64,000 bases of DNA. Origin: Candidatus Brocadia sp. WS118 (GTDB lineage Bacteria; Planctomycetota; Brocadiia; Brocadiales; Brocadiaceae). The translations under genes were made by a program, and so were the position numbers. The stretch lies in assembly GCA_007618135.1 (NCBI GenBank), contig PHFX01000003.1, positions 62,001-126,000 of the forward strand. The letters are read 5' to 3'. The notes under the pieces are model-generated. The model made no database searches. It was not told the DNA's origin and worked only from the letters and a program-made list of their open reading frames with translations. Below, piece by piece: positions 48,720 through 58,460 of this stretch; the stretch's first letter is position 1; the number at the start of each line of letters is the position of its first letter.

Positions 48720-50792
48720 ATGACAGTAACGAGTACCTGTACCGTGCCTGACAAAAAAACAGACGAAGAGGCACCGTGTATCTTAGCCTGTCCCATACGG
48801 CAAGATGCCCGTGATTATGTCCAACTCATAGCCAGAGGACGTTTCAATGAGGCATTTCGGCTGGTGAGAGAGAGAAATCCCTTGCCGGCAGCATGTGGCC
48901 GTATCTGTACCCATCCGTGTGAAACAAAATGCCGAAGGAATAGCACGGATGCCCCAATCGCAATCGCATGGCTCAAACGTTTCCTCGGGGATAATTTTTC
49001 CGAGGAACCACGGAGAACAGCTTCCGGACGATACCCGGAAAAAATCGCCATAATTGGTGCAGGGCCTGCCGGGCTTGCCGCAGCGAATGATTTGGCCCTT
49101 TTAGGGTATTCATGCACCATATTTGAATCAAATGCAACCCCTGGTGGCATGCTCCGAATGGGTGTTCCAACGTATCGTCTCCCAAGGGCATCCATTGATA
49201 ACGACGTCAATGTTATTAAAAAGTTGGGGGTAGAAATTCAATATAATGCAACGTTTGGGGCAGATATTACCTTCGACAGTTTGAAGAAAGACGGGTTTTC
49301 TGTGGTGTTTCTTGGTGTGGGTCTCTTAGAGAGCCGCACCTTGAACATTGAAGGGGTGCAACTCGATGGTGTTCTCAAAGGGATATCCTTTTTGAATGAG
49401 GTAAATACTACCGGAAATGCCAGGATTGGAAAGCATGTGCTCGTAATAGGCGGAGGCGCTGTTGCTATGGACTGCGCACGGACTGCCTTACGATTGAAGC
49501 CCAACAAGGTGTCCGTTGCCTGCCTCGAATCCCGGAAGGAAATGCCGACCACCGATTTTGAAATCGAGGAGGCCATTCATGAAGGAGCAATCCTCTATAA
49601 CTCAGTTGGCCCAAAACGCATTGTCGGGAAGGATGGGAAAGTAACGGGTTTGGAAACTCTTAAGGTGAAATATGTCTTCGATGAACAAAAACGCTTTAAC
49701 CCAGCCTTCTACGAAGGATCGGAGTCCATTATTGAGGCAGATACGATTATTCTCGCCATAGGACAAGCATCAAATCTCTCTTTCCTGAGAGGACAGGATG
49801 GTATACAGGTCACGCGCGGCGGCACAATCATTGCAAATCCAACTACTTTTAGCACCTCTGTTCACGGTATCTATGCAGGCGGCGATGTTGTGCTTGGCCG
49901 GGGGACCATGACCGAAAGCATGGCCCAGGGGAAAAAAGCGGCGATTGCTATTCATAATACCCTGAGAAATACGGCGCTCAAAGATGAGAAATGGGCGGAT
50001 AAACCTGCCGTGCCCGATGTGGCCATGTCCAAAATTGCCCTTATCAAAAAAGAGCAAAAACACGAGATGCCAACTATGTCTTTGGATAAAAGACTGAACA
50101 ATTTTGATGAGGTGGAATTGGGGTTCTCCCTGAATGTGGCTGTAAGAGAGGCACAGCGGTGTATGAACTGTGGTGCAGGCGCCCGGGTGGAGGATAATCT
50201 TTGTGTTGGTTGCCTCACCTGTGTGCGGGTATGTCCTTTTGAGGTACCGAAGATTGCAAAAGGCAATACGACAGCGTATATTGACGGAGATTGCCAATCC
50301 TGTGGTTTGTGCATTGTGGAATGTCCTGCAAAGGCAATCAGTTTTAAAACTCCTATGGAAGATTGTGGAAAAGATGCCCTTGAGGCGGTTTTCCAGGAAA
50401 AATTTGTCCTTGGTATAAAACCCTTTATCGTTAATTTTTATTGTCAATATGGTGCGTATAAAGAGGACAAGGAAATAGTAGCTGATGATTTACTGTTTTC
50501 TCATTTCAGGCGTGTAGGCGTTCTGGGGTTGGGTAAAGTAGATCCGTCATTATATCTCAGGGCATTTGAGTTGGGCGCTCATGGGGTATTGGTAACGGCC
50601 TGCAAAGGGGATACCTGTCATTTTTGTGAAGAACAGGAATGGATTGAAAGAAGGTCAAATTTTACCAGCCAGCTCGTGAGTGGATTGGGAATGGATACCA
50701 GAAGGTTTCAGACCCATTTTATTTCTTCACAGAATGGCAAAGAAATCCTTGAGATTGCTTTTAACATGGCTGAAGAACTGAGAAGTGTATAA
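48720..50792 (+). CDS. GltD-like FAD/NADPH oxidoreductase fused to 2[4Fe-4S] ferredoxin and MvhD-like domain
   Basis: A 690-aa protein. N-terminal Cys C20, C24, C59, C63, C67 and C71 form the GltD/DPYD Fe-S region; FAD site IAIIGAGPAGLAAANDLALLG (~102-122) and NADPH site VLVIGGGAVAMDCA (~240) follow. Residues ~479-545 hold two [4Fe-4S] motifs (CVGCLTCVRVCP, CQSCGLCIVECP). The C-terminal ~125 residues resemble MvhD, the [2Fe-2S] subunit that links hydrogenase or other donors to heterodisulfide-reductase-like modules, but several ligand Cys are gone (see findings). With metV and metF following, it probably feeds electrons to methylene-tetrahydrofolate reductase in the Wood-Ljungdahl pathway. 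Confidence 0.85.
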   Translation: MTVTSTCTVPDKKTDEEAPCILACPIRQDARDYVQLIARGRFNEAFRLVRERNPLPAACGRICTHPCETKCRRNSTDAPIAIAWLKRFLGDNFSEEPRRTASGRYPEKIAIIGAGPAGLAAANDLALLGYSCTIFESNATPGGMLRMGVPTYRLPRASIDNDVNVIKKLGVEIQYNATFGADITFDSLKKDGFSVVFLGVGLLESRTLNIEGVQLDGVLKGISFLNEVNTTGNARIGKHVLVIGGGAVAMDCARTALRLKPNKVSVACLESRKEMPTTDFEIEEAIHEGAILYNSVGPKRIVGKDGKVTGLETLKVKYVFDEQKRFNPAFYEGSESIIEADTIILAIGQASNLSFLRGQDGIQVTRGGTIIANPTTFSTSVHGIYAGGDVVLGRGTMTESMAQGKKAAIAIHNTLRNTALKDEKWADKPAVPDVAMSKIALIKKEQKHEMPTMSLDKRLNNFDEVELGFSLNVAVREAQRCMNCGAGARVEDNLCVGCLTCVRVCPFEVPKIAKGNTTAYIDGDCQSCGLCIVECPAKAISFKTPMEDCGKDALEAVFQEKFVLGIKPFIVNFYCQYGAYKEDKEIVADDLLFSHFRRVGVLGLGKVDPSLYLRAFELGAHGVLVTACKGDTCHFCEEQEWIERRSNFTSQLVSGLGMDTRRFQTHFISSQNGKEILEIAFNMAEELRSV

Positions 50793-51073
50793 TTAAATCG
50801 TAGCTACCAGGTCGCTATGGAACAAAGAAAACAATCGTGGTGACTTTGTATATTTATCACATAGGAAACGCAATTAAAAATATAGATACACGTGTCATTG
50901 CGAGGGCGATAGCCCGAAGCAATCTCTGAGGTTTGGATTGCTTTGTTTCTCCCGCACTGACAATTTTCTCTTTGCATTTACTATAATTCAGATGCGTTGG
51001 ATGGGACAGGTGGAGTGACCCCATCATTGTGTTGTTGCAGGAATTCTGTAAAATTCTTTTGTAAATTAGGAAA
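50793..51073. other. Intergenic stretch with repeat fragment
   Basis: 281 bp between the oxidoreductase and metV. It contains the repeat at 50893-50956 and no clear promoter or ORF; the two genes may still be one transcript. Confidence 0.5.
50893..50956. repeat. Interspersed palindromic repeat half-element
   Basis: TGTCATTGCGAGG opens a common intergenic repeat; GAAGCAATC and GGATTGCTT inside it can pair. No transposase is present. Confidence 0.6.
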
Positions 51074-51748
51074 ATGATTGTAGCTGCATCAAAACCGTTT
51101 CCGGAAATCAAACAGATGCTCTCCGGATTTAAAAAGGTCTGTGTGCTGGGGTGTGGTTCGTGTGTAACCATATGCCATACGGGTGGCGAAAAACAGGTCA
51201 AAGAGCTTGCTGCACAACTCCGGCTCGCCGCAAAACTGGAAGGCAGACACCTTGAAGTTGTTGAGGATTCCACGCTCCGGCAGTGTGAGTGGGAATTTAT
51301 TAGGGATATTCATGAGGTTATCAAAGATTGCGATGCCGTCCTTTCCATTGCCTGTGGCGTAGGTGTGCAGTACATGGCTGAAAGATTCCCCAGGATCAGG
51401 ATATTCCCCGGCTTAAATACCACCTTTATGGGCGGACCTATTGAACAGGGCGTTTTTTGGGAACGGTGTGGGGGCTGTGGCAATTGTATTCTGGGGAGTA
51501 CGGGTGGGTTGTGTCCGGTAAGCCGGTGTGCAAAGAGTTTATTGAATGGCCCGTGTGGCGGTTCACAAAATGGGAAGTGTGAGGTCTCACAGGAAACCCC
51601 GTGCGTGTGGCATCAGATCTACGATCAGCTTGATACCCAGCAGCTTTTGGCCACCATGGAAACGATTGTACCGCCCAAGGACTGGACTACCGGCATGGAA
51701 AACCATCCCCGCAAGATGATCCTGGAACACCTGGTCATGAAAAAATAA
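51074..51748 (+). CDS. metV: Methylenetetrahydrofolate reductase Fe-S partner subunit MetV
   Basis: A 224-aa Cys-rich protein. VCVLGCGSCVTICHTGGEKQ near the N-terminus and CGGCGNCILGSTGGLCPVSRC with LNGPCGGSQNGKCEV at the C-terminus match the MTHFR-C-terminal family (PF12225 type) that holds [4Fe-4S] clusters. MetV transfers electrons to MetF in acetogens. It is 60-120 bp from metF on the same strand. Confidence 0.87.
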   Translation: MIVAASKPFPEIKQMLSGFKKVCVLGCGSCVTICHTGGEKQVKELAAQLRLAAKLEGRHLEVVEDSTLRQCEWEFIRDIHEVIKDCDAVLSIACGVGVQYMAERFPRIRIFPGLNTTFMGGPIEQGVFWERCGGCGNCILGSTGGLCPVSRCAKSLLNGPCGGSQNGKCEVSQETPCVWHQIYDQLDTQQLLATMETIVPPKDWTTGMENHPRKMILEHLVMKK

Positions 51749-51870
51749 ATTGATTAGGACGCCGACCTCCGCAGATACGCACGGTTAATCATCTTATCTT
51801 TTAGTTTTTGAATATCCTGATAATCTGTGTTCATCAGGGTTCAAAAGGAAAAATTTTATATTATCAAATT

Positions 51871-52821
51871 ATGATCGAAAGCAGGTCTGACATAAAATCC
51901 GAAAGTATCCTGGAAAAAATCCTCAGGAGTGGCCAGTTTGCCGTGACGGCAGAACTTGGGCCGCCTCGGGGCGCCGACCGTTCAGTGATAGAAAAAAAGG
52001 CTGGTTTATTAAAAGGCTATGGGGATGCATTCAATATTACCGATTGTCAGACTGCCGTCGTGCGTATGTCCAGTATTGCCGCTGGCCGTATCGTCCTTGA
52101 TGCAGGATTAGAGCCGATCATTCAGATGACCTGCCGCGACCGGAACCGCATTGCCATTCAGAGCGACCTGCTGGGCGCTGCGGCGCTGGGTGCAAAAAAC
52201 CTGTTGTGCCTGACGGGTGACCATCAGAAATTCGGAGACCACCCCATGGCGAAAGGCGTTTTTGACATCGATTCCATTCAACTGATTCACATGGTAAAGA
52301 TGCTCAGAGATGAAAGAAAATTTCAGAGCGGGCAGGAACTGAAGGCTGCTGAACCCCGTTTTTTCATTGGTGCCGCCGAGAATCCCTTTGCCGACCCTTT
52401 TAAATTTCGGGCTATACGGCTTGCCAAAAAGATTGCTGCCGGTGCCGATTTCATCCAGACACAGATTATTTATAACGTCAAAAAGTTTCAGGAGTGGATG
52501 AGAATGGTTGCCGACATGGGGCTCCACGAGAAGGCGTTTATTCTTGCCGGTGTGGCCCCACTTAAGTCGGCTGGTATGGCCAAGCATATGAAGCATAATG
52601 TGCCCGGTATGGATGTGCCCGATGAGGTCATGAATCGCATGACAGCAGCTTCGGCTGCCAAAAAGGGCAAGGAAGAGGGCATCAGGATATGTTTGGAAGT
52701 CATAGAACAGGTTAGGGAGATGAAAGGTGTGGCTGGCGTTCACATCATGGCAGTGGAATGGGAGGAGGCCGTCCCCGACATTGTCCAGCAAGCCCGCTTG
52801 TATCCCAGGCCAAAATTGTAA
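51871..52821 (+). CDS. metF: Methylenetetrahydrofolate reductase MetF
   Basis: A 316-aa TIM-barrel protein starting at MIESRSDIKS; an upstream TTG lies in an interspersed repeat and is rejected. QFAVTAELGPPRGAD is the N-terminal strand, LCLTGDHQKFGDHP the flavin loop, and GADFIQTQIIYNVKKF the folate region. It makes methyl-tetrahydrofolate from methylene-tetrahydrofolate in the methyl branch of the Wood-Ljungdahl pathway. It lacks a second reductase domain and relies on MetV. Confidence 0.9.
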   Translation: MIESRSDIKSESILEKILRSGQFAVTAELGPPRGADRSVIEKKAGLLKGYGDAFNITDCQTAVVRMSSIAAGRIVLDAGLEPIIQMTCRDRNRIAIQSDLLGAAALGAKNLLCLTGDHQKFGDHPMAKGVFDIDSIQLIHMVKMLRDERKFQSGQELKAAEPRFFIGAAENPFADPFKFRAIRLAKKIAAGADFIQTQIIYNVKKFQEWMRMVADMGLHEKAFILAGVAPLKSAGMAKHMKHNVPGMDVPDEVMNRMTAASAAKKGKEEGIRICLEVIEQVREMKGVAGVHIMAVEWEEAVPDIVQQARLYPRPKL

Positions 52822-55185: not shown

Positions 55186-56579
55186 GGGTCTTCTAAGTTT
55201 TGTGTGGGTAAATTTTCATAATAGTTCTTTCTCAACATCATAAAAGATAAGGGTTATCAGGTAAAATAGAACTCCCAAAAGTTGTCACGAGTAGGTATAC
55301 TACTCTGACAAGAGAAAGGAGCATTCATGAAAACCTGTAAAACCTTAGCAGAATTATATTCACATTCTGGATTTCGAGCACGAAGTAAATTAATTGGCGT
55401 TTATGGTGACCCGTATGCAAGAGTAATAAAACTCGAACGCCGTCAAAAAAAACCGTTTGTTCAGTTTGTCATACATCATCGAAGGCGTACTACGATAGTG
55501 AAATCAAACGGACAAGAGATCTTTCCAGCGGTTCATTCAGGATATACGTTGAGTTTGAATACCGCCGTGTATTTTGCAAAAAGTGTAACGCCGTGAAAGT
55601 AGAGACGTTGTCATGGCTTGCCTCGAATACCCGGTATACCAAGCGATACGAACGTCATATTGGCAGACTTTGTCGTGAACTTACGGTAAAGCGAGTAGCA
55701 GAGCTAGAACGGCTTAGCTGGTATCAAGTCAGGCAAATAGAAACAAACTATATGAATGAGCTTGTTAGTCATTTTGGTAAAATCACCAAGCTAAGAGCCA
55801 TCGGAATAGATGAAATTTCTATTCGCAGGGGACACACCTATATGACCTGTGTCAGCGATTTAGACAAAGGTCGTCCCCTATGGATCGGTGGTGAAGGCCG
55901 TAGAGAAGAAGACCTGGATTTGTTTTATAATATGCTTTCTGATAGCCAGAAGAAAAACATTTCCCTTGTCGTCATGGACATGTGGAAGCCTTTTAGGAAA
56001 TCCACTCTCAAGCATATACCTCATGCTCAAATCATCTACGACAAATTTCATATACTTCGTCATCTCGGTGATGCGATGGACACAGTCCGTAAACAGGAAT
56101 ATAGCCGTGTAAGTGAGAAAGAACGAATATTTATCAAAGGACAGAAGTATACGCTTCTGTCACAGAAAGCCAATTTAGATGTAAAGGGCAAACGGGCGTT
56201 ACAGCTGCTTTTCAAAGCCAACAAACGTATCTACAAGGCTTACCTCTTGAAAGAATCATTTGGTAAGCTCTGGAATTACAAAAGCGCCAGCAACGCCGAA
56301 CGATTCTTTACCAACTGGAAATCCCAGTTGAAATGGTCAAGGCTTAAACCATTTCATCAATTTGTAAAAATGATTGAACGGCACTGGAACGGTATTGTGA
56401 GTTACTGTAACCCCAACAATAAGGTCTCTCTTGGACTCGTTGAAGGTATCAATAACAAAGTCCGTGTCATTCAACGACGGGCTTATGGCATTAAAGATCG
56501 AGAGTATTTAAAGCTGAAAATAGTAACAGCATTTTTACCAGAATTATGAAAATTTACCCACACAAAACTTAGAAGACCC
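55186..56579 (+). mobile_element. Complete ISL3-family insertion sequence
   Basis: A 1,394-bp element with 37-bp perfect inverted repeats; the first bases read inward from each end are GGGTCTTCTAAGTTTTGTGT. The flanking sequence TTTAATTG is duplicated (55178-55185 and 56580-56587), an 8-bp target duplication as expected for ISL3. Perfect ends and duplication indicate recent insertion. The only gene is the transposase. Confidence 0.93.
55327..56549 (+). CDS. ISL3-family transposase split by a frameshift at an A8 run
   Basis: The first frame runs from ATG 55327 through LERRQKK to an eight-A run (55445-55452). Past it the first frame gives non-family sequence and stops at 55596, whereas the -1 frame gives the expected zinc-finger region: TVCSVCHTSSKAYY, then YRRVFCKKCNAVKVETLSW. 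The rest (to 56549) contains the DDE domain: RAIGIDEISIRRGHTYMT, VVMDMWKPFRKS and VEGINNKVRVIQRRAYG. The annotated GTG at 55593 is therefore not a real start. Either slippage at A8 makes the full protein or the copy is a frameshift mutant; the intact ends favour the first, weakly. Confidence 0.85.
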
Positions 56580-57239: not shown

Positions 57240-58460
57240 TTATGAAAACATTGCGTCTCGTAACACCTGTATCGTATGAGTGCATTTAACCGGAGACCCC
57301 TTTGCGGCAAGCAGGTCTTCGATTTGAAGCTGACAACCGGGACAACCCGTTGCTACAACTTCAGCGCCGCTTTTTTCTACGGCTTTTGCCTTGTATTCCC
57401 CGATCTTCGTGGAGAGGTCGTAGTGTAACAAATTAAATACCCCGCCGCCACCGCAGCATCGTTCCGGGTTTTCCATCTCCTGAAATTCAGCAGAACGTTT
57501 CAAAATATCCCTGGGTTGTTTTGAGATGTTTTGACCCCAGTAGAGATGACACGGATCATGATAGGTAATTTTCGTGTTAAGTATCTTTGTTTCGTATGAA
57601 AAATATTTTTCAATGAACTCGGATACATCGTATATTTTATCCGTGAATTTTAAGGCACGATCGCCCAGAAGATGGAGATAATCTCTTTTCAGTGTCCTTC
57701 CGCAGGTGGCACATGCATTGATAATAAAATCGACGTTGGCATTCTCAAATACCTCCACATTTACTTCCGCCAATCTTCGTGCCGTTTTGACATCCCCCAA
57801 CGATCTTGCGGGGATGCCACAGCACAACTGCTTTGGAGGCACAATCACCTCAACTCCAAGATGGTTTAATACCTCGATTACTGCATCGGCAATATCGGTA
57901 TAGACGTAGTTGATGAGACAACCGACGTAAAATCCCACTTTCATTTTAGGATTTTTTATCTTCTTCGTATTTCGATATTTTTTTAATACCGGCTTCTTCG
58001 CCAAAGGAGGAATCCATCTGCCGCCCATAAGCATAAAGGGCAGATGTCGCATGGTGCCGTGACGTTTGAGTGGAACGAGGCGTTGAAAGGTGCTGGCAGT
58101 TTTCAAAAGAAGGTTAAAGAGCCACCTTCTGGTCAGGAACAGTCTGAATATAATTCGTGGTATCAGCCATATGCCGAGGTGATTTGCCACATCGTCAAGC
58201 ATGGCTTGGATGATGAGATCATAATCAACACCCGAGGGACAGATACTGGAGCATCGAAGGCATTTCTTGCAGGAGAGGAGGTAATCCCTCAGGAGTTCCG
58301 TGTGAAAAATCTCGCCGTTTCGCAAGGCTTCGGCCAGGCTGATGCGGCCTCGTGCTACCATGGATTCGTTACCCGTCTCGATAAAGACGGGACAGATTGA
58401 GCGGCATTTGCCGCATTTGGCGCATTTATGAATTTCGGCTTGCCACTCCTTAGTAAGCAT
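57240..58460 (-). CDS. GlcF/HdrD-like Fe-S oxidoreductase
   Basis: A 406-aa protein. Two [4Fe-4S] ferredoxin motifs (CAKCGKCRSICP, CKKCLRCSSICP, ~13-24 and ~64-75) are followed by a membrane-proximal hydrophobic stretch and two CCG domains (CCGIPARSLGD, CATCGRTLK, CHLYWG, CCGGGGVFNL, GCPGCQLQIED). This is the glycolate oxidase iron-sulfur subunit or heterodisulfide reductase D-type layout. No GlcD/E partner is in the window, so the electron donor is unknown. Confidence 0.85.
   Translation of the reverse strand: MLTKEWQAEIHKCAKCGKCRSICPVFIETGNESMVARGRISLAEALRNGEIFHTELLRDYLLSCKKCLRCSSICPSGVDYDLIIQAMLDDVANHLGIWLIPRIIFRLFLTRRWLFNLLLKTASTFQRLVPLKRHGTMRHLPFMLMGGRWIPPLAKKPVLKKYRNTKKIKNPKMKVGFYVGCLINYVYTDIADAVIEVLNHLGVEVIVPPKQLCCGIPARSLGDVKTARRLAEVNVEVFENANVDFIINACATCGRTLKRDYLHLLGDRALKFTDKIYDVSEFIEKYFSYETKILNTKITYHDPCHLYWGQNISKQPRDILKRSAEFQEMENPERCCGGGGVFNLLHYDLSTKIGEYKAKAVEKSGAEVVATGCPGCQLQIEDLLAAKGSPVKCTHTIQVLRDAMFS

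Follow-up and report, generated by a model that had tools for sequence, protein, structure and literature searches.

A single-chain GltD-ferredoxin-MvhD fusion upstream of metVF in Candidatus Brocadia sp. WS118: a candidate NADH-oxidising subunit of an Hdr-free methylene-THF reductase

The window analysed here is a 64,000-nucleotide stretch of Candidatus Brocadia sp. WS118 (contig PHFX01000003.1, positions 62,001 to 126,000 of the forward strand), and all positions given below are counted from its first letter. On its plus strand, a 690-residue protein (48720-50792) joins a GltD-type flavin module, a 2[4Fe-4S] ferredoxin-like part and an MvhD-like domain in one chain upstream of metV and metF. 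Judged from its domains and conserved gene order, this fusion is likely to be the NADH-oxidising electron-input subunit of an Hdr-free, probably non-bifurcating methylene-tetrahydrofolate (methylene-THF) reductase (MTHFR) of the MetVF type. An earlier note on this DNA had proposed a single-chain candidate electron-input protein for MetVF, and the genomic evidence, in both architecture and conserved linkage, supports that proposal. Published work is cited by PMC number for the individual passages that bear on each point.

Architecture of the fusion chain

The open reading frame (ORF) and domain scans confirm the chain that the earlier note had described before metV-metF. It opens with a Fer4_20 domain (residues 17-95, 48768-49004; Pfam 7.7e-21), in which the match and cysteine conservation mark C20, C24, C59, C63, C67 and C71 as putative [4Fe-4S] sites of the GltD/NfnL type. 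A GltD-type FAD and NAD(P) binding module follows (Pyr_redox_2, residues 108-404, 49041-49931; Pfam 3e-27 and fold matches). Downstream of it lie an EAQRCMNCG segment containing C481 and C484 (50148-50174), located by a two-segment match to 4ylf_B, and a 2[4Fe-4S] ferredoxin-like motif (4Fe-4S dicluster, residues 495-540, 50202-50339; Pfam 8.1e-07), whose eight cysteines are present in 70 of 70 aligned fusions. The chain closes with an MvhD/FlpD domain (residues 570-689, 50427-50786; Pfam 1.8e-18). Its best NCBIfam match is the GltD-like PRK12771 over residues 13-542 (467.1 bits against a model cut-off of 516), while the tail, residues 487-689, matches the HdrA2 model NF040770. An assembly or frame artefact was ruled out as the source of the fusion, as the same architecture occurs as long open frames in many genomes.

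The AlphaFold2 model of the fusion has a mean pLDDT of 90 and a pTM of 0.89, with poor confidence at residues 1-13 and 582-591. In fold comparisons, residues 13-554 match a Caldicellulosiruptor NfnABC chain (Z 43.3), residues 11-546 match StnC (8oh5_C, Z 42.6) and residues 15-423 match NfnL and GltD (Z 28.8-34.3). The match to NfnL 5jca_L covers 397 aligned residues at a root-mean-square deviation of 1.8 and 38% identity (Z 34.1). Domains, model and fold matches agree on a Fer4_20 part with the two-dinucleotide-binding fold of NfnL and GltD; the table of fold matches is governed by residues 15-423 and barely tests the MvhD domain.

The chain holds 16 cysteines of the [4Fe-4S] type, 13 of which, C481 and C484 among them, are kept in all 70 aligned fusions. 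C20 and C24 are present in 69 (the exception, L003, has a later start) and C59 in 64. Residues 444-485 align with residues 2-43 of T. maritima NfnL (4ylf_B), where the cysteine-bearing segment precedes Fer4_20, whereas in the fusion the matching segment comes after the GltD module; C481 and C484 therefore probably complete a Fer4_20 cluster. The pattern suggests four [4Fe-4S] sites per chain rather than two, so that the 2[4Fe-4S] ferredoxin named in the earlier note is indeed present as a motif but would account for only part of the cluster content.

The MvhD domain scores 67.2 bits against a Pfam cut-off of 22.3. Of its four canonical cysteines (in the FxC, CxG, GC and DCH regions), which we take to be [2Fe-2S]-type ligands, the fusion keeps 575, 628 and 633, and the second is replaced by G603 (50526-50528). 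All four are present in 32 of the 70 aligned fusions. With named loci assigned to the families labelled f1, f2 and f4 by titles and tree position, the second cysteine is lost in every f1 (18/18), f4 (8/8) and f5 (1/1) row, and an extra cysteine at 636 appears in all 18 f1 rows. Rows of f2 (3/3) and f3 (1/1) retain the full set, and five rows outside Brocadiales retain just one canonical cysteine. Loss of the second cysteine, shared by the anammox-clade members analysed, makes cluster transfer through the MvhD domain uncertain in those members, and docking may be the more general role of the domain. Tagged MvhD of Sporomusa ovata pulled down HdrA, HdrB and MetF (PMC9430772).

Gene order and distribution

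The fusion is followed on the same strand by metV (51074-51748; 224 residues, DUF5981 iron-sulfur subunit; PF12225, 1.6e-35) and metF (51871-52821; 316 residues; PF02219, 8.1e-41). A longer metF frame opens at TTG 51808, and the ATG at 51871 is the likelier start because relatives align from it. The genome carries one MetF, the sole PF02219 match, one MetV and one MvhD match. No solved-structure relative of MetV was found at E 0.001.

Gene order was surveyed in a sample of 78 relatives, in which fusion genomes were picked by hand among the profile matches listed, so that weaker fusions may be missed; a fusion was counted as linked when metV, metF or both lay no more than 6 kb away on its strand. 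The fusion is present in at least 61 of them and linked in 56: 37 genomes have fusion, metV and metF together, 13 have fusion and metF, and six have fusion and metV. Among the five unlinked cases, the contigs of G023 and G035 end before the end of MvhD, and in G032 the fusion adjoins the start of metV at a contig end. Linkage persists where the set has been split, as the fusion stays with metF in 13 of 14 f4 genomes, metV being elsewhere or not found, and with metV in all three genomes of genus g11, metF being elsewhere. CODH/ACS (PF03598) is present in 56 of the 61 fusion genomes versus 9 of the 17 others (Fisher p 7e-4, uncorrected for relatedness). The earlier note had tied its proposal to conservation of this order among relatives possessing the Wood-Ljungdahl pathway, and most fusion genomes do keep it.

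A collection of named genomes, taken as the best 80 loci by match, extends this picture. Nine loci without the fusion architecture (L069, L099, L120, L124-L127, L129 and L130) were set aside. The remaining 71 carry the fusion, and in 53 it stands directly upstream of metV and/or metF; in seven more the contig ends within 700 nt downstream. Linked loci occur in at least seven phyla (Planctomycetota, Chloroflexota, Actinomycetota, Nitrospirota, Thermodesulfobacteriota, Bacillota and Armatimonadota, by title or tree placement), and the distribution survey that the earlier note had called for thus finds linkage both in most relatives and well beyond them. At the actinomycetote locus L069, an unfused GltD-ferredoxin protein (563 residues) and MvhD (134 residues) precede MetV and MetF; the first two lie in the same frame, parted by a single stop codon, which makes a nonsense change or an error possible.

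Several variants were noted alongside. Seven Bacillota loci (L073, L075, L077, L083, L090, L106 and L121) carry the fusion without metV or metF nearby. A longer fusion of 773-794 residues occurs in L114 (7893-10211), L103, L119 and L122 (Neomarinimicrobiota, FCB), its domains having been scanned in L114, where the genes upstream resemble 2-oxoacid oxidoreductase, judged from sequence starts, and suggest another partner. In G069, a genome of the same class, a MetV domain is fused to an RnfC-type NADH module (L045:6173-8158; PF12225, RnfC_N and Complex1_51K), and downstream of it MetF is fused to a FolD-type protein (L045:8800-10722; MTHFR and THF_DHG_CYH). From its domains, the MetV-RnfC chain would be a type III-like donor in one polypeptide.

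The nicotinamide site and the missing Hdr parts

Within the GltD-type module, C268-L269-E270 (49521-49529) occupies the place of Y-R-R in NADPH-using relatives, as read from an ungapped alignment with T. maritima NfnL. YRR is found in that NfnL and in StnC; in the fusion both arginines are replaced. CLE is present in 59 of the 70 aligned fusions and YRR in the other 11, with no mixed form. All 27 aligned f1, f4 and f5 rows read CLE, as do the Moorella-type HdrA proteins of L124 and L130, and the next-best GltD-type paralogues, two in the studied genome and two in G020, read YRR. The CLE motif, shared with Moorella-type HdrA, makes NADH the likelier donor.

Several published findings bear on this reading. 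An acidic residue is usual at the end of the second strand in NAD-preferring Rossmann enzymes, and engineered cofactor swaps are listed for lipoamide dehydrogenase and glutathione reductase (PMC5817062). Stn oxidises NADPH (PMC7483475), and HdrA of Moorella thermoacetica is named as the NADH site (PMC8760232). The NADH:benzyl viologen activity of M. thermoacetica HdrA is 190 U/mg; that of S. ovata HdrA, in which neither a GltD domain nor an NAD(P)H site is predicted, is 0.5 U/mg (PMC9430772). In T. phaeum, where metVF lies beside hdrA, one soluble fraction was active with methylene-THF and NADH, was inactive with NADPH and showed no effect of ferredoxin; its authors allow that this activity may be the sum of two enzymes (PMC6895022).

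The NADPH-linked, non-bifurcating donor first proposed is an improbable alternative. Among the module's NCBIfam and solved-structure relatives, several bear the names of NADPH enzymes, and 10 of the 11 YRR fusions lie beside metV and/or metF; the studied fusion and all aligned f1, f4 and f5 rows nonetheless read CLE, while the two next-best paralogues of the genome keep YRR. On these grounds the NADPH linkage of the earlier note is not supported and is the less likely reading.

A tree of the GltD modules, made by a quick search with SH-aLRT support only and with the motif columns left out, requires two changes between CLE and YRR; the program warned that long paralogue branches may be falsely joined. 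The simplest reading would be that YRR came first, CLE arose once and a single reversion occurred in L066/L067. The GltD rows of Moorella branch within the CLE clade from an unresolved node. L035 (G042, f2), a tree neighbour of L066/L067, keeps CLE with a longer loop.

The Moorella locus shows where these modules recur. The Moorella stamsii locus L124 encodes, in this order, a CCG-domain protein resembling HdrB, a 1488-residue HdrA, MvhD (150 residues), MetV and MetF. This HdrA comprises Fer4_20 (161-240), a GltD module (258-552) with a short HdrA stretch ahead of it, HdrA-type regions and a 2[4Fe-4S] part (1415-1469). The fusion is equivalent to two parts of Moorella-type HdrA, its GltD insert and its terminal ferredoxin, with MvhD added. 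The 1487-residue HdrA of L130 carries E696, K750, E1204 and K1246 at M. thermoacetica numbering, residues that constitute the bifurcation signature of the two TrxR-like domains in M. thermoacetica HdrA (PMC9430772). A GltD domain is already present in the latter protein (PMC9430772). The earlier note had contrasted the fusion with acetogens, where comparable functions are spread over HdrABC-MvhD; since the M. thermoacetica HdrA already holds a GltD domain, the unusual trait of the fusion is the absence of HdrA, HdrB and HdrC parts and not its input module.

The TrxR-like flavin domains of HdrA were not found in the fusion chain by domain scan. Neither was an HdrA found in the studied genome, which is 96% complete: with all 67 candidates scored, NF040770 scores highest on the tail of the fusion itself (107.9 bits over 571-772), and its other matches are short pieces. 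At E 1e-40, with 11 candidates scored per genome, no HdrA was found in any of the 33 f1 genomes or in 45 of the 61 fusion genomes, a count that includes G043, where the model matches nothing but the fusion tail. An HdrA encoded elsewhere that would complete a type IV complex was accordingly rejected for the studied genome and the 33 f1 genomes. No HdrB or HdrC was recognised among the scanned neighbours, which do not include every neighbouring ORF, and no genome-wide HdrB/HdrC search was made. A CCG protein at 57240-58460 best matches LdhH/TfrB/GlpC-type models.

Proposed electron route and relation to known reductases

In the proposed mechanism, NADH would reduce the FAD of the GltD-type module, and electrons would leave it singly through the two [4Fe-4S] clusters of the Fer4_20 part and then pass through the two of the ferredoxin part. 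The MvhD-like domain would dock on the cluster of MetV and perhaps relay electrons to it. Complex formation, NADH specificity, the order of transfer and the absence of bifurcation are what we infer from this arrangement. The chain offers one flavin site and a row of clusters but no HdrA flavin, an arrangement most simply read as direct transfer. The fusion shares its modules with Moorella, and no HdrA flavin domains, HdrB or HdrC were recognised alongside, so NADH electrons are most likely passed directly to MetVF without bifurcation. Transfer from NADH (-320 mV) to methylene-THF (-200 mV) is downhill, with about 120 mV left (PMC8760232).

That same interval would also accommodate a bifurcating or confurcating version, which we regard as unlikely. 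Here the GltD-type FAD would split NADH electrons between ferredoxin and MetVF, as in NfnL, which the module resembles (5jca_L) and whose FAD is the bifurcating flavin. Against this, the fusion chain lacks the HdrA flavin domains with their E/K signature, no HdrA was found in the studied genome, and no NfnS-like partner was recognised among those neighbours that were scanned. The GltD of glutamate synthase, moreover, has the same fold without bifurcation. The earlier suggestion of a possibly bifurcating complex is thus weakened, and would still hold with bifurcation at the FAD of the GltD-type module.

Acetogen MTHFRs are divided into four types (PMC8760232). The type IV enzymes of M. thermoacetica and S. 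ovata (HdrCBA-MvhD-MetVF) have MetV, MetF and an MvhD unit before metV in common with the locus, and Moorella-type HdrA adds a GltD module with CLE and a terminal ferredoxin motif. They differ in that GltD, ferredoxin and MvhD form one 690-residue chain here, in which the MvhD unit is a fused domain with one canonical cysteine replaced and from which the HdrA flavin domains are missing; both MetV and MetF are present, as in type IV. In the type III enzyme of Acetobacterium woodii (RnfC2-MetVF), a dedicated NADH-oxidising iron-sulfur flavoprotein feeds MetVF, as proposed for the fusion; its input subunit is RnfC-type rather than GltD-type, and the passages describing it report that ferredoxin reduction was not observed (PMC8760232). 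An RnfC2-type input was ruled out at the locus, as none of the genome's three RnfC_N matches falls on the window contig, C221; they are found on C14 (below cut-off), C25 and C117. Type II is a ferredoxin-dependent MetVF without a dedicated donor; here a conserved candidate donor adjoins metVF.

Outside the MetVF enzymes, HdrA2 of Methanosarcina acetivorans likewise carries a ferredoxin motif followed by a C-terminal MvhD in one chain, but where the fusion has its GltD module this protein has an HdrA core. StnC and NfnA of the StnABC and NfnABC transhydrogenases give the best fold matches and combine a GltD-type module with iron-sulfur motifs in one polypeptide, yet have a YRR nicotinamide site, another C-terminal half and different partners, with neither MvhD nor MetVF. 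NfnL and GltD share Fer4_20 and the FAD/NAD(P) module, to which the fusion adds the ferredoxin and MvhD domains. The fusion is best classed with type IV, as an Hdr-free relative probably working in the manner of type III. No description of it with MetVF was found in the available passages of the open-licence PMC literature.

Several observations weigh against the proposed role as NADH-oxidising donor. E270 presumably sits two residues past the classical acidic position, going by the alignment with lipoamide dehydrogenase; the NADH inference is therefore moderate, and CLE speaks more for a lost ability to bind NADPH than for proven NADH binding. The Moorella-type motif was read from M. stamsii and a Clostridia metagenome-assembled genome rather than from M. 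thermoacetica, and in vitro coupling of NADH to methylene-THF by the Moorella complex was not seen in the work described (PMC8760232). HdrA is encoded elsewhere in 16 of the 61 fusion genomes (all 14 f4 genomes, one f5 and the f7 genome), for which an Hdr link is possible; in f4 it does not adjoin the fusion, metF or metV and lies about 49 kb away at the nearest. The fusion-metV gap (50793-51073) is loose at about 280 nt, and in G004 a 469-residue ORF (L050:8590-9999) intervenes. The fusion is truly unlinked to metV or metF in two f5 genomes, and 11 of the 71 named fusion loci, including Bacillota/Syntrophomonadaceae and Neomarinimicrobiota, have neither gene downstream despite at least 700 nt of remaining contig.

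These 11 loci, together with the apparent 2-oxoacid oxidoreductase genes that L114 follows, would suit a general NADH:ferredoxin or NADH:acceptor oxidoreductase for which the link to MetVF is not the main job. This is doubtful at best, given that 53 of the 71 loci are linked and that in Brocadiales the fusion remains next to one of metV and metF in genomes where the other lies elsewhere. The loose spacing would suit neighbours brought together by chance, an explanation that is scarcely credible with an order conserved across a class and at least seven phyla.

If the donor role holds, the system may tentatively be counted as a further MTHFR class: an Hdr-free, NADH-fed MetVF whose donor is a single GltD-ferredoxin-MvhD chain, spread over anammox bacteria and six or more further phyla. 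Its nicotinamide site would have switched between NADH and NADPH types, and the anammox MvhD, having lost a cluster ligand, would mainly dock. A MetVF gene set with an NADH-type module and MvhD but no HdrA flavins offers a three-protein system for comparing coupling with and without a bifurcating part, which is of interest as the second acceptor of type IV enzymes is still described as unknown in the passages cited (PMC8760232, PMC13040438). The locus further supplies a candidate donor subunit for methylene-THF reduction in anammox bacteria, where the relevant part of one paper labels metF "methylene-THF reductase (NADH)" in a figure legend only (PMC12213060). CLE/YRR, finally, may serve as a sequence mark for telling NADH users from NADPH users in different phyla.

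The anammox label of the studied genome rests on its kin. HZS_alpha (PF18582), the intended marker, is found in 43 of the 78 relatives, but its specificity is undercut by two matches in G077 and by many in both G063 and G069. It has no match in the genome under study (G000), perhaps through an assembly gap, though same-genus genomes have one or two, G002, G004 and G005 among the carriers. Another genome of the genus, G007, shares its GltD-module row with L052, a Candidatus Brocadia sp. locus.

Promoter-like and terminator-like sites occur at the locus in numbers near shuffled counts. A segment of the fusion-metV gap (50900-50924) resembles a dispersed repeat and occurs once within the window, and an ISL3-family transposase (PF01610) lies at 55593-56549.

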